NCBI GenBank assembly: GCA_002686265.1
Contig: NZBA01000120.1
Coordinates: forward strand, 124,001-188,000
DNA: 64,000 bases
From: Planctomycetota bacterium
GTDB taxonomy: Bacteria > Planctomycetota > UBA1135 > GCA-002686595
Direction: 5' to 3'
Shown here: positions 32,821 to 41,807 of the stretch, piece by piece
How positions within the stretch are numbered: the first letter of the stretch is position 1
Layout: the number at the start of each line of letters is the position of its first letter
Program-made: the position numbers and the translations under genes
Notes under the pieces: model-generated
Told to the model about the DNA's origin: nothing
Seen by the model: the letters and a program-made list of their open reading frames with translations, nothing else
The model's database searches: none

Positions 32821-35142
32821 ATGAGACACCGAGCCCTCGCACACCTTCCGCCAACGATGCCCTCCTCGGTTGGGCGCCTGTGCGCGCCGCTCTTCCTTTT
32901 TCAGCTGGCGGCCTCCGCCCAGGATCACGCGCCCACCGGCCTCCTCCCGCCCGTGCGCCTCGAGGCGGGCGGTGCGCCCATCGACGTAACCGTCGGCCAC
33001 GCGGCACCTGTGGTGATCGACTTCGACGGCGATGGACTGCGGGACCTGCTGGTGGGGGAGTTCGGGGAAGGGACCTTCCCTCCCGAGCGCCTGCCCGAGG
33101 ACGTCGGCGGGCTCGCCCGCGACTCCTTCAGCCTGGGGAAGCTGCGCGTCTACCGCAACGTGGGTAGTGCCGAGGTTCCGCGCTTCGAGGACTTCGAGTA
33201 CCTGCGTGCGGGCAAGGAAGACGCGTCGATCCCGACGACATGATGCATCAGCTTCTGTCCACAGTTCGTGGACTACGACGCTGACGGTGACATCGACGTT
33301 CTGTCCGGCTCCTACACGGGTGAGATCTACCTCTTCGAACGCAGCGCCAACGGCGAGCTCGCACAGGGGCGCTATCTCGAGGACGAGGGCGGAGGGGTGC
33401 TGCAGACGGGGAACTCGGTCACCCCCGAGGCGGTCGACGTCGACGGGGACGACGACCTCGACTTGGTCATCGGCACTCGCTCCTCGGGGGTGTTCGTCGT
33501 CATCAACCGCGGGACGCGGGCCGAGCCGCGCTGGGCTGGGGAGCCGGTGCTCCTGAAGACCCGCGACGGCTCGCGCATCGAGGGCTCGAACGCTCACCAC
33601 GCGGACTGGGACGGTGACGGCGTGCGCGACCTGATCGTGGGCTCCGAGCGCGGCGGCGCTGGCTGGCACAGGAACCTCGGCTCGAACGACACCCCCGCCT
33701 ACGGCGAGGCCGCGGACCTCGTCGCGCGCCTGCCCTTCGAGGAGCGCGAGGAGGCCGACGGGCCGGTGGCTCCCGGATCCCGTACCAAGGTGCACGTGAG
33801 CGACTGGAACGGCGACGGCCTGGCGGACCTCTTGATCGGCGACGTGCAGTGGCTGTGGGAGACCCTGCCGCCCCTGACCGCCGAGCAGGAGGCTCGCAAG
33901 GCGGAGATCGAGCCGGAGTATGAGGCCCTCTCCGACGCCTACGAGACGGCGGTCGCGGAGCGCAACAGCTACGTGGGCAAGCCGGGCGGGATCCCCGAGG
34001 AAGCGCTCGCTCTCTACCGGGCGGCCTGGGATGCGCTCAAGCCGCTGTCGCGCGAGATGGCGTCCTTCGAGCGGCGCAAGCCCAATACGCACGGCTGGGT
34101 CTGGCTCTACCTGCGCGCAGGCCCGGCGACGTCAGAGGGCGTGGAGGCCGCCGCCGATGAGCAGCCGCAGGGAGCGACCACGCACGCGGGGTCCGCGCGC
34201 GAACCCCGCGTGCGACAGGTGCTCGGCCCGGCGACCCTGGAGCTCTTCGCCAGGCCAGTCTCCGCCGCCGAGCCCCTGGTGCGCCTGCGGCTCGTCCTGT
34301 CGCTGGAGCGGGGCTGGCACGTCTACGAGTCGGTGCCCGCCCCAAGCGCCTACCGCGCCTTCGAGCCGCGGCTGGACCTGCCCGCCGGCGTGGAGCAGGC
34401 CCGCGAGTGGCGCTCGGAGTCCTTCGGCGTGCCCTCGCGGACGGAGCCTGGAGCGACGTGGTTCGTGGACGAGGCCGTCTTCACCTGCGAGCTGCGCCTC
34501 TCCGAGCCCACCGGAGGCGAGGTCGCCGTGACCTTGGACCTGCAGGTCTGCGACGATCGGGTCTGTCTCCCGCCGAAGACGGCCCGCCTGTCCCTGGGGA
34601 AGGTGACGCGCGAGGCGGGCTCGCGGGCCCTGCGGCTTGGTAGCCTGGACGCCATGCTCCCTCGATTCATCAAGCGCTGGCTCCCCAGCCCCGGCTCCTC
34701 GATCCTGACCCCGGGTGCCGAGGCCCCCGAGTTCACCCTGACCGACGACCGCGGTGTCGCACGCAGTTCGACCGACTTCGCCGGCGAGCGCTACCTCTTG
34801 TGGTTCTACCCGATGGCGGGTACGCCCGGATGAACGGCCCAGGGCCAGGGGTTCCGTGATCGAACCCCCCGCTACGAGGAGCTCGGAATCCGCATCCTCG
34901 GCGTCTCCTTCGACCCGCCCGAGAAGAACCGCGCCTTCGCCGAGAAGCAGGACTTCTCCTTTCCCCTGCTCACCGACGCGAGTCGCGAGTTGGCCATGGC
35001 CTACGGCGCCTGCGAGGACGCGGGCGCGCGCTTTCCCGCGCGCCTGACCTTCGTCGTCGGCCCCGACGGCCTGATCGAGCAGTCCATCGAGACCTCCGAC
35101 CCCGCCGGCCAGGCCCAGGCGATCCTCGACGCCCTGGAGTGA
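32821..35142 (+). CDS. predicted exported selenoprotein: VCBS repeats, DsbD-like domain and Sec-peroxiredoxin
   Basis: One reading frame of 774 codons interrupted by two TGA codons (33241-33243, codon 141; 34831-34833, codon 671). Signal peptide LCAPLFLFQLAASAQ; FG-GAP/VCBS calcium-loop repeats (DFDGDGLRDLL, DYDADGDIDVLSGS, DVDGDDDLDLVIG, DWDGDGVRDLIVG, DWNGDGLADLLIG) to ~residue 350; a charged helical insert; a DsbD-N-like domain ~460-600 with GWHVYESVP and QVCDDRVCLPP (Cys577, Cys582); and an AhpC/TSA-BCP-type peroxiredoxin from ~612. There, LLWFYPMAGTPG is followed by TGA and then TAQGQGFRD, so TGA sits exactly at the peroxidatic Cys. At codon 141 TGA precedes Cys (SIPTT-TGA-CISFCPQFVD). 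Each site has a downstream hairpin. A separate start at ATG 34654 for the peroxiredoxin cannot be excluded. Interpreted as thiol/selenol peroxidase outside the cytoplasm. Confidence 0.8.
33257..33273 (+). promoter_or_regulatory. SECIS-like hairpin for TGA 33241
   Basis: Perfect 6-bp stem GTCCAC/GTGGAC with loop AGTTC. The loop starts 19 nt after the TGA and has G among its first two bases, as bacterial SECIS elements usually do. It lies inside the coding sequence (PQFVD), as is normal for bacteria. Confidence 0.55.
34848..34868 (+). promoter_or_regulatory. SECIS-like hairpin for TGA 34831
   Basis: Perfect 7-bp stem GGGGTTC/GAACCCC with loop CGTGATC. The loop begins 21 nt after the TGA that replaces the peroxidatic Cys codon and has G at its second base. 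The spacing matches that of the hairpin after 33241. Confidence 0.6.
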
Positions 35143-35509
35143 GCGAGCGCTCACGCTCGATCCAGCATTTGTGTTGGCTGCCCCGACCGCGTGTCCACCG
35201 GCGGACGGCGGAGCGGAACGGGTGCCAGAGAGCGGGGAGGTGACCTCTCTTACCGAATCCTTTCCGACTGGAGTTCCCCGGCCTCCAGCACCGCCGACAC
35301 GGGCTCGGACGGCATGTTCGGGGAGGGGGAACGGGCTGTGCGTGGGCGTTCTCGGGGCTTGGGGAGCTCCGGGCGCGAACTCGGCTACCGCGCGCACTTC
35401 ACCCCCGGCGAGCCATCGCCTATCCTGAACGCTCACCGGATCGCTGCGCGGCCCCCGCCGCGCGATTGATGTCGAGCCAGTCGGACCCACCTGACAGGGA
35501 ATGTAATCG
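35143..35509 (+). other. intergenic region between two predicted selenoprotein genes
   Basis: 367 bp without a supported gene. A short hairpin (GTGAGC-GAGC-GCTCAC, 35139-35154) spans the stop codon of the upstream gene and could help end transcription. The last 40 bases carry ACAGGGA, about 10 nt before ATG 35510, as a weak ribosome-binding site. No promoter pair is convincing. Confidence 0.4.
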
Positions 35510-36499
35510 ATGAAGAAGACCAAGCTGCTCACGGGCGCCCTCGGCGCTCTGATCCTGGTCGGTACGGGCATCCCCGCGGGTGCCCTGCCGGGGTGATGAA
35601 GTGCCCCCCCTGCGTCATCCGGTCCGGGTGGCAGTGGCGGTAGAGGTGGCGGCGGCGGCGGCGGCCCGGTGGGGCCCTCGGTCCCCGGAAGGGGAGGAGG
35701 CGCTTCGACTCCGGGCGGAGCGGGCGCCGGAGCGGCGCCCCAGGTGCCCAGCACCCCGCGCAGCGCCAGCTCACGCAAGTACCTCGAGATCGAGTGGACC
35801 TACCCGGTCCACCAAGAGGAAGCGGAAGCCCCGGCGGCGGGCACGGTCGCGCGGCGCGCACGTCGGGCTCTGACCCGCGAGGAGTCCCTGCGGCTCATCG
35901 CCGGCGACGATCCGCGTCCCCTGCTCGTCCTACGCGAGTGCAAGTGGTGCAACGGGACCGACAAGGCCCTGCTCGGCGAGGGCGGCGACAACGAGAAGAC
36001 CTTCCTTCTCTCGCGCTGGTTCCACTGCGTGAAGCTGCCCCAGGATGTGCTGGAGGACAATCATCCCTTCCGCAACCTGTTCGGCGAGAAGAACGTCGAG
36101 CACCTGTTCGTCAGCACCCACGATGGCCAGAACCACATCGCCCTGGAGTCCGAGCGCTCGCGCGCCGAGCTCTGGGAGGCGATGACGGATCTGCTCGAGG
36201 TGGACTACAAGCAGAAGCACCGCACCTCCCTCAAGGAGGTCACGAAGCTCCTCGACACGTTTGACGTCGTGGACGCCCGCTACCAGGATCTCGTGGCCCG
36301 GCGGGACGAGATCCTCGAGGAAGAGGGACCGAAGTCGCGCAAGTTGAGGAAGGTCTACCGTGACCTGGCGAAGAGCGAGGCGGACCTGAGGGACCTCCAC
36401 GCGCAATTCGCCAAGGCCTCGAAGATGGACCTCAGGCGGCCCGTGGTCGCTCCCGCGCCCGCGGAAGCTCCCGCGAACGAGGGGCAAGTCGGCCTCTGA
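35510..36499 (+). CDS. predicted exported selenoprotein with tandem Sec codons, thioredoxin-like CKWC domain
   Basis: 330 codons in one frame with tandem TGA TGA at codons 29-30 (35594-35599). ATG 35510 starts a clear signal peptide, MKKTKLLTGALGALILVGTG, ending IPAGA. The two TGA codons follow at once (LPG-TGA-TGA-SAPP), then a Gly-rich linker (~60 residues) and a domain from ~residue 95. That domain contains PLLVLRECKWCNGTDKALL, a thioredoxin-like CxxC motif, then strand/helix pieces (WFHCVKLPQDVL, VEHLFVSTHDGQNHIAL). The C-terminal ~100 residues are a charged coiled coil. A later GTG (35669) exists, but starting there drops the signal peptide. A hairpin with a GGTCC loop lies 21 nt after the second TGA. 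I infer a Sec-Sec redox or metal-binding N-terminus on an exported protein. Confidence 0.72.
35614..35632 (+). promoter_or_regulatory. SECIS-like hairpin for tandem TGATGA 35594
   Basis: 7-bp stem GTCATCC/GGGTGGC (two G-T wobbles) with loop GGTCC. The GGU at the start of the loop is the E. coli-type SelB-binding signature. The loop begins 21 nt after the second TGA and 24 nt after the first, the same spacing as the two hairpins in the upstream gene. Confidence 0.6.
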
Positions 36500-36585
36500 G
36501 TCGGATCTTCCTCGAGAGCGTGATTGCACAGGCAGCGGGCGCCCGGAGGCGTCCGCTGCCGGTCATGTGTAGGGTCATGTGTAGG

Positions 36586-37806
36586 ATGGTGCTCGTGATC
36601 CACAGGCGCTCGACAGCGGCGCTGTTCCTGGCTACCGCCTGCGCGGTCCTCGACTCGCCGGACGCCATCGCGCTCCAGGGGGAGGGCGGTGAGGCCGAGG
36701 AGGAGCAGTTCGAGGAGGTCGACCCCTACACCAAGGGCGACCGCGAACTGGAGCGGCGTCTGGGATACGAGCGCCTCGGGTTCTTCCCTTGGGCCGCCGG
36801 CCAGACCACCGCCGATGTGTGCGAGATGATGGGCGGGGTCGAGATCCTGTGGGTCGAGACCGCGAACTTCCGCATCGGCTCGAGCCTCAAGACCTACGAC
36901 CTCTCTGGCGACAAGCGGGAGAAGGCGCTGCTGAAGAAGGAGCTGGCGCGCTTGAAGAAGCGCCTCGGCAAGCTGAAGGCCCCGCGCAGGGAGCTCGATC
37001 CCTGGTTGCGCCTACACCTGTACGCCCAGCGCATGGAGGAGCTCTACGCGCACTTCCTGGAGCGCTTCGGCCTGTCCGCGGCCGACTTTCCCGAGGGAGC
37101 GCCCTACCTGGGCTACCGCGAGAAGTTCCTGGTCCTGATCTGCGAGCGCAAGAGCAGCTTCGGCCGCTACACGCGCATCTACCACGGCTCCGACCAGAGC
37201 TGGTCCTTCCGCACCGGGTTCACCGACGGTGCCATGTTCACCGGGTTGAGCTCGGAGGCGCTCAGCGAGACCTCCTTCAAGCTGGACTCGGCACTCTACT
37301 GCCAGCTCGTCTCAGACATGGTGCTCAACTTCAACGACGCCTACCGCGTCAACTACTTCAACTCGCCGATCTGGTGGAAGTACGGCCTGGCCCACTGGTA
37401 CTCGCGGCGCATCGATCCGCGTTGGACCTCCTCCGCCGGGGTGCCCTCCGGAAGGAACTGGCGCGAGGAGGATGCGGAGTGGAGACCGCGCGTGGGCAAC
37501 CTGGTCAAGAACGACTTCTTCATCTCCACCGAGAAGCTCTTCGCCTGCTCCGACTACGAGGACCTGAACACCCGAGACCACATGGTCGCCTGGTCGCGCA
37601 TCGAGTTCCTCCTCGAGCGCGAGGAAGCCGACTTGAAGGGATTCCTGGACGCGATCAATCGGCGCAAGCCCGAGGGTGACGAGGCGGCGGTGACCGCCAA
37701 GCTCGTGGAACGCCAGCGCGCCGCTCTCGAACAGTGCTTCGGCCTGAGCTCCGCCGAGCTGGACGAGCAGTGGGCTAGCTACGTCAGGAAGCAGTACCGC
37801 AAGTAG
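36586..37806 (+). CDS. conserved secreted protein of unknown function
   Basis: 406 aa. ATG 36586 precedes a signal peptide (MVLVIHRRSTAALFLATACA). The ORF could be extended upstream, but that part contains a duplicated 12-mer (GGTCATGTGTAG at 36561-36584) and does not look coding. The mature protein has VCEMMGGVEILWVETANFRI, a basic helix (KALLKKELARLKKRLGKLKA), and later GLAHWYSRRIDPRW, an H-W-Y segment like that of some gluzincin-related DUFs but without HExxH. It resembles a family I recall only as hypothetical proteins of planctomycetes. It follows the thioredoxin-like selenoprotein by 86 bp and precedes queA by 23 bp. Confidence 0.7.
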   Translation: MVLVIHRRSTAALFLATACAVLDSPDAIALQGEGGEAEEEQFEEVDPYTKGDRELERRLGYERLGFFPWAAGQTTADVCEMMGGVEILWVETANFRIGSSLKTYDLSGDKREKALLKKELARLKKRLGKLKAPRRELDPWLRLHLYAQRMEELYAHFLERFGLSAADFPEGAPYLGYREKFLVLICERKSSFGRYTRIYHGSDQSWSFRTGFTDGAMFTGLSSEALSETSFKLDSALYCQLVSDMVLNFNDAYRVNYFNSPIWWKYGLAHWYSRRIDPRWTSSAGVPSGRNWREEDAEWRPRVGNLVKNDFFISTEKLFACSDYEDLNTRDHMVAWSRIEFLLEREEADLKGFLDAINRRKPEGDEAAVTAKLVERQRAALEQCFGLSSAELDEQWASYVRKQYRK

Positions 37807-37829
37807 GCGGTGGGTCGACTCCCGAGCCC

Positions 37830-38936
37830 GTGGACCTCAGCGACTTCGACTACGACCTTCCGCGCGGGCGCATCGCGCAGGAACCGGCGGCTCGGCGGGA
37901 CGAGGCGCGGCTGCTCGTCGCCGCCCGAGCAGAGCGCCACCGACGCATCGCGGATCTGCCCGAGCTGCTCGAGCCGGGGGACCTCTTGGTGCTGAACGAC
38001 ACGCGGGTCGTCCCCGCGCGTCTGTTGGGCAGGCGTCCGAGCGGCGGCGCCCTCGAGCTCCTGCTCGTCGAGGCCGTCGCCGGCGACGTGTGGCGGGCCC
38101 TCGCTCGCCCTGCGAAGAAGCTGCGCGCGGGTGACGTCTGCACTCTCGACGGCGGGCTCCTGACGGCGACCGCTCTCGAACGCGAGCGGGACGGCGCGGG
38201 CGAGGGGGGAGCGGGCTGGACGGTCTTGCTCGAAGCCCGCGGGCCGGGCGGGGGAATCGCCGAGCGCATCGAGGCCTGCGGGCGCATGCCCCTGCCACCC
38301 TACGTACGGCGCAGCCCCGACGACGCGCGCGGCGAGGCCGACCGGCAGCGCTACCAGACCGTCTTCGCGCGGGAGATCGGCGCCGTGGCCGCGCCCACGG
38401 CGGGCTTGCACTTCACTCCCGAGCTGCTCGAGCGCCTCGAGGAGGGTGGCGTCGAGCGCGCCTTCGTGACCCTGCACGTCGGTCCGGGGACCTTCCGGCC
38501 CGTCGAGGCCGAGCGCATCGAGGATCATCGCATGCACGCCGAGCGTTTCGTCCTGCCGCAGGCCTGCGCCGACGCCGTGGCCCGCTGCCGCGAGCGCGGT
38601 GGACGCGTGATCGCCGTGGGCACGACGGTGGTGCGCACCCTGGAGGCCTGCGCCGACGAGCGCGGAGCCCTACTGCCGCGAGCGGGCTCCACCGACCTCT
38701 TCATCCTCCCCGGCTACCGCTTCCGCGTGGTCGACGCTCTGCTGACCAACTTCCACCTGCCCAAGAGCACGCTCCTGATGCTCGTCTGCGCCTTCGCGGG
38801 GCGCGGTGTCGTGCTCGATCTCTACCGCGTCGCTCTCGAGGCCGGCTACCGCTTCTACAGCTACGGTGACGCGATGCTGCTCGAGGACGGAGGCCGGAGC
38901 GTGGCGCGGGTGGCTCAGGGAGGCCGCGCGACATGA
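37830..38936 (+). CDS. queA: S-adenosylmethionine:tRNA ribosyltransferase-isomerase
   Basis: Transfers and isomerises the ribosyl of SAM onto 7-aminomethyl-7-deazaguanine in tRNA to give epoxyqueuosine. 368 aa, GTG start. Family motifs: DLSDFDYDLPRGRIAQEPA, DLLVLNDTRVVPARLLG, GRMPLPPYVRR, RYQTVFA, AVAAPTAGLHFT, LHVGPGTFRPVEAERIEDH and FILPGYRFRVVDALLTNFHL (end of the core), then GYRFYSYGDAMLL. The next enzyme of the pathway, QueG, is at 49552-50679. The stop overlaps the next gene by ATGA. Confidence 0.96.
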   Translation: MDLSDFDYDLPRGRIAQEPAARRDEARLLVAARAERHRRIADLPELLEPGDLLVLNDTRVVPARLLGRRPSGGALELLLVEAVAGDVWRALARPAKKLRAGDVCTLDGGLLTATALERERDGAGEGGAGWTVLLEARGPGGGIAERIEACGRMPLPPYVRRSPDDARGEADRQRYQTVFAREIGAVAAPTAGLHFTPELLERLEEGGVERAFVTLHVGPGTFRPVEAERIEDHRMHAERFVLPQACADAVARCRERGGRVIAVGTTVVRTLEACADERGALLPRAGSTDLFILPGYRFRVVDALLTNFHLPKSTLLMLVCAFAGRGVVLDLYRVALEAGYRFYSYGDAMLLEDGGRSVARVAQGGRAT

Positions 38937-40759
38937 TCGCCGGCGCGGGCCTCGCCTTGGCGCTGACCGCCGCGTTCCCGGCGGGCCGCGCCCCCGCGCA
39001 CGAGCTGGAGGTGGTCGTGCTCGCCGCGGGCGCCGTCGAGTTGTCGGCGGCCGAGCTGCGGGGAGCCTCCCTGGCCCTCCATCCCACCGTCCCCGACCTT
39101 GCCGGAGGATTCACCGTGCTCCCCGGCGAAGCGCGCGCCCTCCCCGAGGGAGGCGTGGCGCGCCTGTATGTGGAGCCCGGCACCTACGCCGTTGCCGTCA
39201 CCCTGCGCGGGCGCCCCGCGGGCTTGTTCGAGGGGGGCGTGGAGGTGCTCGAGAGCTTGGTGGAGGTCCGGGCCGGGGAGGCGCCGACGCACCTCGTCCT
39301 GCGCTCCCGCCCTCCCGACGCCCCCCGTGGTCGATTGCGCGTCACCATGCGCGCCGCCGGCCGCGTGCTGCCCTCGGGTGGCTTCCATCTCGCCTCGCCG
39401 CTGACCGGCACCCTCCTCGATCCCCGCCCGCACCACGAGGGCCCGCGCGGCGTGGCGCAGCTCGAGCCCCTGCCCTGCTTCGAGTGGATCGACTTGCCCG
39501 TCGGTGCCTACTTCGTTCTCGCCGCGGCGCCGGCGGCGGACCTGAGCGGGATCGACTGGTCGCGGCTGGCCGCGCCGCGCGTGCAGGTCGAGATCGATCC
39601 TCGCATCGACCGGATTGCGACCCTGGCCCACCTGCCCGGTGGAGAGCTGCGCCTGACTCTGGGCGCCGGGGGGGCCCCAGGCGCGGGCGTGGGCGCGAGT
39701 GCCGCCAGGGTGTGCTTCCAGCGCCAGGGTGAAGCCGTCGCCTGGCCGCTCTTCGGCGCCCTGGCGCTCGGCGAGTCCGTCCGCTCGCCGCTCCTGACCG
39801 CGGGCGATTACCAGCTCTTCGTGCGTCGGGCCGGGGAGGCGACGGGGCGGATCGCGGCCCGGATTGCGCCGGGAAGCGTCGTGGAGGTCCGGTACGCGCC
39901 GGGAGGATCGGAGGAGGCGAGGATGGCGCGCTTGCGCGAGGGGACCGAGGGAACCGATGGGGCCGAGCTCCGCCTCCACGCGCGCCGCCGCGTGGCGCTC
40001 GGGGGCGCGGAAGCCCGAGCGCGTGAGGAGCTGCTGCGCTGGGAGCCCACGCGCACGGCACTGGTGATCTGCGATATGTGGGACGACCATTGGTGCGCCG
40101 GTGCCGCCCGTCGCGTGGCGGAGATGGCGGGCGCGGTGAACGAGATGGCGGCGGCCGCGCGCGCCCGCGGCGTGGCGATCCTCCACGCCCCCAGCTCGGT
40201 GGTCGCCTTCTACGACGGCACGCCCCAGCGCGAGCGCGCCCGCGCCGCTCGCTTCGCCCCGACGCCGCGGCCGCTCTCGACCGACGAGCGCTGGGGGACG
40301 ACCTGGTGCTGGCCGGACCCGGCCCGCGAGGCGGCCATGCCGATCGACGACTCCAACATGGGCTGCGACTGCGATCCGCGTTGCGAGATCCGCGACGTGT
40401 GGACGCGCCAGATCGCCTCGATCGAGATCGCCCCGCGGGACTTCATCACCGACGACGGTCAGGAGACCTACAACGTCCTGGCCGAGCGCGGGATCGACCA
40501 CGTGGCGATCGCCGGCGTGCACCTCAACATGTGCGTCCTCGGGCGCCCGTTCGGGATCCGGCAGCTGGTACACATGGGCAAGGAGGTCGTGTTGGTGCGC
40601 GACCTGACGGACTCGATGTACGACCCGCGCATGGCGCCCTTCGTCTCCCACTTCGAGGGCACCGACCTGGTGGTCGCCCACGTCGAGCGATACTGGTGTC
40701 CGACGATCCTGAGCACCGACTTCACCTGCCGGCGCTCGGGCTTCCGATTCCCCCGTTGA
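38933..40759 (+). CDS. exported protein with C-terminal isochorismatase-like cysteine hydrolase domain
   Basis: 608 aa. Signal peptide (MIAGAGLALALTAAFPAGRA). Residues ~25-360 are a beta-rich region with repeated carboxypeptidase-regulatory-like units (LEVVVLAAGAVELSAAELRG, VEPGTYAVAVTLRGRPAGLF, LPVGAYFVLAAAPAADLSG). Residues ~375-608 are an isochorismatase-fold cysteine hydrolase: catalytic Asp in TALVICDMWDDHWC and nucleophile Cys in VAIAGVHLNMCVLGRPFGIR, with QETYNVLAERGIDHV between. It also has a Cys cluster (MGCDCDPRCEIR). Start overlaps queA by ATGA. Its last 38 bp overlap the convergent 40722 gene. Substrate unknown; a signal peptide is unusual for this family. Confidence 0.75.
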   Translation: MIAGAGLALALTAAFPAGRAPAHELEVVVLAAGAVELSAAELRGASLALHPTVPDLAGGFTVLPGEARALPEGGVARLYVEPGTYAVAVTLRGRPAGLFEGGVEVLESLVEVRAGEAPTHLVLRSRPPDAPRGRLRVTMRAAGRVLPSGGFHLASPLTGTLLDPRPHHEGPRGVAQLEPLPCFEWIDLPVGAYFVLAAAPAADLSGIDWSRLAAPRVQVEIDPRIDRIATLAHLPGGELRLTLGAGGAPGAGVGASAARVCFQRQGEAVAWPLFGALALGESVRSPLLTAGDYQLFVRRAGEATGRIAARIAPGSVVEVRYAPGGSEEARMARLREGTEGTDGAELRLHARRRVALGGAEARAREELLRWEPTRTALVICDMWDDHWCAGAARRVAEMAGAVNEMAAAARARGVAILHAPSSVVAFYDGTPQRERARAARFAPTPRPLSTDERWGTTWCWPDPAREAAMPIDDSNMGCDCDPRCEIRDVWTRQIASIEIAPRDFITDDGQETYNVLAERGIDHVAIAGVHLNMCVLGRPFGIRQLVHMGKEVVLVRDLTDSMYDPRMAPFVSHFEGTDLVVAHVERYWCPTILSTDFTCRRSGFRFPR

Positions 40760-41807
40760 TCCCGACGGTCAGGGCGATTGGGCGCTCGAAGCGCTCGGCC
40801 GCCTCCACCAGGGCGCGCTGGTCGAGGGGGACGACCAGTCCCAGGGTCAGGTGGGAGGAAGAGCCGAGTTTCCAGCTGGCTCCGGCCAGCAGCTCCAGGG
40901 ACTCCACGCCCGAGTCGGGGTCCAGGACGCCGTCCCAGCGCGCGCCCTGTTGGCGGAAGGCGTTCAGACCGAGGTAGAGCGCGAGACGCTCCCTCATCCC
41001 CCAGATCACCAGCGCTCCCGCGGAGACCTGGAGGGGAGGGAAGTACTCCCGGTCGTTCTCGTAGAGCGGGAAGCGCCCGGTTGCGAAGGCGGAGACGCGC
41101 AGGTCATCGGCGAGCGGGCGCACGTAGTACGCCTCGAGGATCGGATCGAACGTCCCGCTGCCGAACTGCACGTGCGAGTGCTCTTCGCCCTCCGCTCCGA
41201 GCTCGAAGGGGTTGTGCTCGGTGCGGCCTAGGGGGAGGGTCGTCCCCACGGCGGTGGTCAGGACGTCGCCGTCCGTGAAGACGCCTTCGGCTCGGTGGGC
41301 AGCCAGGGCGCTCGCGTCCCCGAAGCCGGTCAGGGTGCCGGGCGGGTGGTGGATCTGCATGTCGCGCTCCATCTGTTCCCGCTCCTCGTCCGTGGCATCC
41401 CCGTCGGGTTCGACGGAGGCGGCGCGCTCCTTGGTGTCGTAGGGGAGGCGCAGCCAGCCGGTCCAGTCCTCGCCCAGTCGTCGGCGCGCGATCAACTCGA
41501 GGCGCAGGAGATCGAGGCGCACCCGGTGTCGGTAGGGCGGGACTTCGACCGTCTCGCCGCTCGAGTCGATGCCCTGGGTGGACGGGTGGCCGCCGTCCAT
41601 GTCGAACGCGCGCACCAAGCGCAGCTCGAGGTTCCACTTCCCGACTCGGTCCGAGGTCGCACCGACCTCGAGCGCCGCCGTGCCGGGCACGACGGGGTTG
41701 CTTCAGGCCGGTCAGCTCTGGGCCTCGCCGCGGCCTCCCAGGCCGATCACGGCCAGGAGTGCGACGAGCGGACGCGCGAGGGCGCGGTCGGTTTGGTCGG
41801 ACGGCAT
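40722..41807 (-). CDS. predicted outer-membrane-like selenoprotein with Sec-x-x-Sec N-terminus
   Basis: 362 codons in one frame with TGA at codons 32 (41714-41712) and 35 (41705-41703). ATG 41807 begins a signal peptide (RPLVALLAVIGLGGRGEAQ), followed by S-TGA-P-A-TGA-SNP, then VVPGTAALEVGATSDRVGKW. The remainder is beta-strand rich with DUF-like barrel features (WNLELRLVRAFDMDGGHPS, RVRLDLLRLELIARRRL, LTTAVGTTLPLGRTEHNPFE, LALYLGLNAFRQQG, HLTLGLVVPL). Starting at GTG 41690 would lose the signal peptide. ATG 41867, overlapping the thiE stop by ATGA, is an in-frame alternative start. Families of this barrel type often have CxxC right after the signal peptide; here it would be UxxU. A 9-bp hairpin follows the second TGA. 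Convergent with the 38933 gene (38-bp overlap). Confidence 0.75.
41675..41695 (-). promoter_or_regulatory. SECIS-like hairpin for TGA-N6-TGA at 41714-41703
   Basis: 9-bp stem CCGTCGTGC/GCACGGCGG (one G-T wobble) with loop CCG. The loop starts 17 nt after the second TGA and 26 nt after the first. The loop lacks the GGU of E. coli and has its G last, so this is the weakest of the four hairpins by sequence, though the strongest by stem. Confidence 0.45.

Follow-up and report, generated by a model that had tools for sequence, protein, structure and literature searches.

The window analysed in this study is a stretch of 64 kb (contig NZBA01000120.1; GC content 0.71) from a 5.07-Mb draft genome of a Planctomycetota bacterium in 135 contigs, and it carries three genes, here called genes 1, 2 and 3, each of which is interrupted by two in-frame TGA codons. 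An initial annotation, made by a model from the sequence alone, had described these six codons and interpreted the genes as a cluster for exported selenoproteins overlooked by standard gene calling. All six TGAs were confirmed to be present and in frame, with their first bases at positions 33241 and 34831 (gene 1, plus strand), 35594 and 35597 (gene 2, plus strand), and 41714 and 41705 (gene 3, minus strand). With TGA read as a stop, the open reading frames (ORFs) listed under translation table 11 are 33268–34833, 35669–36499 and 41690–40722, each without its signal peptide, and standard gene calling does overlook the full proteins. The signal peptides of genes 1, 2 and 3, judged by eye, agree with the initial annotation.

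Relatives of the window in a collection of named genomes are mostly labelled Planctomycetota and include the isolates Pla86 and Poly30, whose genomes are finished (CP036296.1 and CP036434.1, respectively); the host clade is the Planctomycetota clade that includes these two isolates. Gene 2 was followed through 79 distinct loci of named genomes, taken from the best 80 of 85 relatives, with some genomes giving two loci. Further comparisons used a family set of 81 genomes, which also holds many of the named gene 2 genomes, and a phylum set of 392 genomes. The sister genome G014 belongs to the same genus, and its contig with all three genes is locus L077 of the named set.

Domain structure and TGA columns of the three genes

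Gene 1 (32821–35142, plus strand) encodes a protein of 773 residues, including two predicted selenocysteines (Sec, U), with a signal peptide, an FG-GAP/VCBS propeller, a DsbD_N-like domain and an AhpC-TSA peroxiredoxin domain. The FG-GAP, DsbD_N and AhpC-TSA domains all lie above their Pfam cut-offs (61.1 bits against 26.9 for FG-GAP_3; 92.1 bits against 26 for PF00578, AhpC-TSA). For a query lacking the last 26 residues, the BCP thiol peroxidase model NF006960 gave 88.9 bits at an equivalog cut-off of 140. The SelL-related model NF040769 gave 15.3 bits, under its family cut-off of 120, and was not matched by genes 2 and 3. The first candidate Sec codon (33241–33243, plus strand) lies in the propeller motif TTUCISFCPQF and the second (34831–34833, plus strand) at the peroxidatic position in TPGUTAQG. 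Both are family columns: UC[IV][SG]F was found in all 14 propeller sites fetched and TPGU in 20 peroxiredoxin sites (the window and 19 loci), while five relatives, those listed without a stop at E < 1e-30, have TPGC. In G014, gene 1 is 79% identical and has the same two TGAs. A match to gene 1 occurs in 80 of the 81 family genomes, which says little because its domains are common. Judging by homology, the product would join a Sec-peroxiredoxin to a VCBS propeller and a DsbD-N-like domain and presumably act as an exported peroxide or thiol enzyme.

Gene 2 (35510–36499, plus strand) comprises a signal peptide, two adjacent TGAs (TGATGA, 35594–35599, plus strand; LPGUUSAPP), a low-complexity linker, a putatively thioredoxin-like domain with a CxxC motif and a helical hairpin. 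The N-terminus is covered in 77 of the 79 named loci (L146 and L150 were read by eye), and 76 of these 77 have at least one TGA at this place: immediately after the signal peptide, UU stands in 56, UC in 14, CU in four, U followed by a Cys a few positions later in two, and Cys only in one. The UU form is present in the isolates Poly30 and Pla86, both with finished genomes, which we take to grow aerobically. In the family set, 39 of 81 genomes have a match, with exactly two TGAs at 24 of the 45 listed places. The domain was also found in 55 of the 392 phylum genomes; 11 of these places were fetched, and all 11 have U after the signal peptide. CxxC is invariant in 19 of 19 closer relatives, while five of the 11 fetched, distant ones from other planctomycete families (L219–L223), have U or UC following the signal peptide and are without CxxC. 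The N-terminal Sec therefore seems more conserved than CxxC. The window protein matched no Pfam or NCBIfam family, and 19 relatives gave only scattered weak Pfam matches. The AlphaFold2 model (predicted local distance difference test, pLDDT, 81.9) ends in a helical hairpin and weakly resembles Trx2 and DsbD-gamma, with no Foldseek match at E ≤ 0.001. A search of PDB sequences returned coiled-coil matches only (E 0.0097 or worse), and a PHROGs search returned no match. A reading of LPG-U as a lipobox was dropped, as A-P-Q-U does not fit the lipobox rule.

Gene 3 (40722–41807, minus strand) encodes a signal peptide, the motif UPAU and an outer-membrane-type beta-barrel. Its candidate Sec codons (41714–41712 and 41705–41703, together 41703–41714, minus strand; AQSUPAUSNP) form a UxxU motif. 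Among 27 loci fetched, the window included, the motif occurs in 25, namely as UxxU in 24 and as UPACSNP in L180; the remaining two (L176 and L179) match from residue 175 on only, with no motif shown. Five of the 81 family genomes have a match, in every case with two TGAs, and 24 of the 392 phylum genomes also have one. An alignment of 16 proteins has both U, P33, P38, P41 and several His invariant. The model (pLDDT 78.5) has a 12- or 13-stranded barrel with UxxU in a disordered N-terminus, and the barrel resembles the COG4313 channel 4rl8 (E 1.9e-10; template modelling score 0.52 by query). The COG4313/MetA-type sequence model PF13557 was matched by two of 16 relatives (best E 2.2e-4). The window protein matched neither this model nor any other in Pfam or NCBIfam, and the PDB sequence search returned nothing for it. 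Beside gene 3, positions 38933–40759 (plus strand) encode an exported-looking protein with, as judged by eye, an isochorismatase-like C-terminal part and the Cys cluster NMGCDCDPRC.

The clustering of the three genes, as described in the initial annotation, holds within the genus, since G014 also has genes 1 to 3 on one contig. It does not extend beyond: the flanks of the 79 gene 2 loci have gene 1 motifs in one case, from the same genus, and a TPGU peroxiredoxin in one more (L078).

Selenocysteine machinery and SECIS-like hairpins

The initial annotation had found no sel genes in the window and advised searching the rest of the genome, where all were detected: selB on contig C111 (PF09107, 62.6 bits at a cut-off of 23.2), selA at C63:103836, selD at C63:110183 with a TGA of its own in CAGUAAK, and a tRNA-Sec with anticodon UCA at C63:113107. 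Thus about 10 kb of one contig (C63:103836–113200) hold selA, selD and tRNA-Sec, with selB on a separate one. A second tRNA-Sec gene (C3:17984–18079) lies on a 31-kb contig with transposase-like ORFs (by eye) and a GC content of 0.61, against about 0.71 for the genome. Because of this deviation it was left out of the genome's own machinery; the contig could stem from a mobile region or from contamination. In the family set, selA is above cut-off in 74 of 81 genomes and matched in all 29 with a completeness of 90% or more and a contamination of 5% or less.

Further candidates were seen in the window's genome. A PF00578 search gave 19 matches, seven of which, gene 1 included, carry TGA in the column of the active-site Cys (FVUPSE, TPGUT, WUGPC three times, WUAPC and WUASC). 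The six besides gene 1 (L181, L184, L185, L186, L187, L190) are one AhpC-like protein with FVUPSE and five TlpA-like proteins with WUxxC. A second exported VCBS propeller with TGA in a UC motif (WUCIGMGSQF) lies around C37:41573–42865 (L202). With genes 2, 3 and selD, this amounts to 11 selenoprotein candidates, a tally that falls short of a full search. Five motif patterns scanned over 11 of 12 stretches of the genome together with the window (270,859 bases) returned only the three window genes and missed the C37 propeller lying within these stretches; the patterns are therefore narrow and say little on density.

A hairpin resembling a selenocysteine insertion sequence (SECIS) lies downstream of the TGAs of each site. 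In gene 1, the loop of the propeller hairpin (33257–33273, plus strand) is AGTTC and begins 19 nt past the TGA, and that of the peroxiredoxin hairpin (34848–34868, plus strand) is CGTGATC and begins 21 nt past its TGA. In gene 2 (35606–35640, plus strand) the loop is 22 nt from the second and 25 nt from the first TGA. The gene 3 hairpin (41675–41695, minus strand), downstream of the Sec codons, has its loop about 16 and 25 nt after the two TGAs, with a model-conforming alternative further on. These distances are close to the 17–26 nt of the initial annotation. The published bacterial SECIS (bSECIS) model, which places the loop 16–37 nt downstream of UGA, was passed by all propeller (14/14) and peroxiredoxin (20/20) sites, by 68/75 sites of gene 2 and by 5/5 of gene 3. 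The 75 gene 2 sites are those of 74 loci and the window, with L146 and L150 left out. In the same order, the fractions passing were 0.33, 0.50, 0.75 and 0.67 for dinucleotide shuffles, 0.30, 0.49, 0.71 and 0.63 for codon shuffles, and 0.48, 0.46, 0.56 and 0.43 for control places in the same genes. For a wider gene 3 set, 23/25 sites passed, compared with 0.52 of codon shuffles and 0.33 of places in the same gene. On average the hairpins exceed shuffled and same-gene controls, by a clear margin for gene 1 and, site by site, by a modest one for genes 2 and 3.

Covariation was found for both hairpins of gene 1. In the peroxiredoxin hairpin, 14 cells changed on both sides, and the score of 0.295 was reached by none of 500 shuffles and was at most 0.087 when the structure was slid. 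In the propeller hairpin (12 distinct among 14 sequences) the score was 0.201, again reached by 0/500 shuffles, and at most 0.104 when slid; related sequences can, as a caveat, surpass such shuffles. By the plain count of pairs changed on both sides, shuffles attained the observed value in 171/500 (peroxiredoxin) and 26/500 (propeller) cases. Of 20 Sec peroxiredoxins, 19 use the loop codons CGT GAT CGA and one uses CGT GAC CGA; none of the five Cys forms has CGT GAT CGA. The gene 2 hairpin is constrained at the family level: where codon 7 downstream of the last UGA specifies Ser, it is AGT in 29/32 cases, as against 26/589 Ser codons further on; AGTT stands at offset 18 or 21 in 37/75 sites, as against 0–2/75 in six control windows; and the arms are fully paired in 25/37 sites with their own partners, as against 10.7% with swapped ones. 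Comparison of sequences demonstrates selection at the RNA level on the hairpins of genes 1 and 2; those of gene 3 are weaker candidates.

Decoding and function

Exchange between Cys and Sec in fixed columns is a classic mark of selenocysteine. Such columns with Cys or TGA in homologues were found for all three genes, and we are highly confident that the six TGAs are selenocysteine codons, predicted to be read by the genome's SelA, SelB, SelD and tRNA-Sec with a SECIS just downstream. The products would be three extracytoplasmic selenoproteins. In gene 2, one SECIS would, because of the spacing, serve both UGAs of the tandem pair. The selenoprotein interpretation of the initial annotation is hence supported by sequence evidence: of the findings it had named as contrary, namely a genome without selB or tRNA-Sec, homologues without Cys or TGA in these columns, and hairpins no stronger than random sequence, none was obtained.

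The TGAs might instead be ordinary stops within pseudogenes, assembly errors or short gene pairs. The initial annotation had noted that TGA is an ordinary stop elsewhere; it is the usual stop in the window, ending 26 of the 32 ORFs of at least 200 residues with high GC content at third codon positions (33268–34833, which ends at a Sec site, included), and standard calls end or start at the sites in question. This explanation is nevertheless highly improbable, because TGA or Cys occupies the same columns across many genomes, two finished ones among them, and conservation continues past the TGA. We give just as little credence to read-through by another route, such as partial reassignment or a suppressor tRNA inserting, for example, Trp: read-through alone is not specific to Sec, but the exchange partner in the columns is Cys, tRNA-Sec and all sel genes are present, and TGA ends most long ORFs.

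Four results weigh against selenocysteine decoding or against parts of the picture. In a codon-position test, window TGAs whose frame is open for 30 codons on both sides (n = 963; 589 with a spanning match) were compared with one G014 contig. Six TGAs passed on both sides, of which only 33241 and 34831, both in gene 1, keep TGA or Cys; the test thus supports gene 1 beyond chance, whereas the sites of genes 2 and 3 failed it and it is uninformative for them. No match spanned position 35594, the changes upstream of 35597 were too few (0, 1, 0), and the gene 3 barrel had changes at all three codon positions; without filtering, such a scan leaves frames inseparable in this GC-rich DNA. The case for the gene 2 and gene 3 sites rests on the wider family comparison. 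Sites beating at least 29 of 30 shuffles were also few (10/14 propeller, 8/20 peroxiredoxin, 17/75 gene 2, 0/5 gene 3), so that for genes 2 and 3 the folding of single sites counts as modest evidence. In three incomplete genomes (G032, G033, G045), gene 2 is present but selA has no match. Finally, the thioredoxin-like assignment of the gene 2 domain depends on weak fold matches (best Foldseek E 0.049).

As to function, we tentatively propose, at somewhat less than even confidence, that the N-terminus of the gene 2 protein is a free arm, Sec-Sec or Sec-Cys, which hangs on a flexible linker and would exchange electrons with the thioredoxin-like CxxC or with partners, that gene 3 presents UxxU on the N-terminus of an outer-membrane channel, and that together they may handle oxidants, disulfides or soft metals in the envelope. 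With the same decoding, UU and UxxU might instead be binding sites for soft metals or metalloids (Cu, Hg, As) with no electron shuttling. The invariant CxxC in the closest gene 2 relatives and the peroxiredoxin of gene 1 speak against this, but the loss of CxxC from the five distant relatives suggests an arm able to work in its absence, several His of gene 3 are invariant, and the table of the review PMC13188914 lists a UxxU "metal-binding protein"; we regard metal binding as a serious candidate, if a rather doubtful one. It is unlikely that in the tandem and UxxU pairs one UGA is decoded efficiently while the other mostly terminates, so that the pair throttles expression. Termination does compete at each UGA, and the UC and CU forms (18/77 gene 2 loci) show that one Sec can suffice; yet UU is the commonest form (56/77), and both gene 2 codons of the window lie within the published 16–37 nt of the loop.

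More broadly, the chances appear evenly balanced that a large part of the Planctomycetota, isolates included, has envelope proteins with adjacent Sec-Sec at the mature N-terminus, in which one SECIS would serve both UGAs and the pair would form a vicinal diselenide or a soft-metal arm, accompanied by an outer-membrane channel with UxxU and by tethered Sec-peroxiredoxins. Since the UU family occurs in the finished isolates Poly30 and Pla86, this claim is testable at once. Genes 2 and 3 would each add a selenoprotein family. No Pfam or NCBIfam model is matched by the members in the window, and the motifs of the two families, adjacent UU and UxxU on an outer-membrane-type barrel, are cut off by standard gene calls along with the signal peptide. 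The natural UU, UC, CU and C forms would offer a ready system for studying one SECIS for two consecutive UGAs and selenium versus sulfur outside the cytoplasm.

Comparison with known selenoproteins

Periplasmic formate dehydrogenases are exported bacterial selenoproteins. The initial annotation had called an exported set unusual in bacteria; three exported selenoproteins are indeed predicted here, but the wording was overstated, as a barrel and a TonB-dependent receptor are already listed in the table of 119 selenoprotein families of the 2026 review PMC13188914. According to that review, aerobic bacteria rarely keep selenoproteins, and a word search of its text for "planctomyc" gave no result. 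PMC4807772 reports selenoproteins in two other planctomycetes, naming formate dehydrogenase and FmdB. Poly30 genes are in laboratory use according to PMC10896814, where Poly30 is called more distantly related. A word search of PMC12013277 for the terms of this case gave no match.

Like the Sec-peroxiredoxins (AhpC-TSA, PF00578; PxxxTxxU in PMC13188914), gene 1 has a predicted Sec at the peroxidatic position (TPGU), and differs from them by its signal peptide and by the VCBS propeller with its own Sec and the DsbD_N-like domain in front. Gene 3 shares two predicted Sec in UxxU with the SelL and UxxU families (a Prx-like family with UxxU in PMC2398784, the metal-binding protein NF041115, and FmdB), from which it is set apart by the outer-membrane-type barrel, the UxxU in a disordered N-terminus and the lack of an NCBIfam match. 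The GSU2204 barrel (MtrB/PioB-type) and the TonB-dependent receptor with FCYXU are likewise outer-membrane-type proteins with Sec, with one Sec each in the table of PMC13188914, whereas the fold of gene 3 is closest to COG4313/FapF channels. The domain of gene 2 with CxxC has its weak fold match in DsbD-gamma and thioredoxin, unlike which it has no Pfam family and carries a long C-terminal helical hairpin and the N-terminal UU arm. Two Sec per bacterial protein are also found in MbdU (motif CU), TsoB (UxxxxU) and other families of the same table. Adjacent UU is given in none of its motif entries, while for some two-Sec entries no pair motif is stated, and these might be identical with gene 2; if correct, the Sec-Sec envelope arm would be a protein chemistry found in no motif entry of that table.

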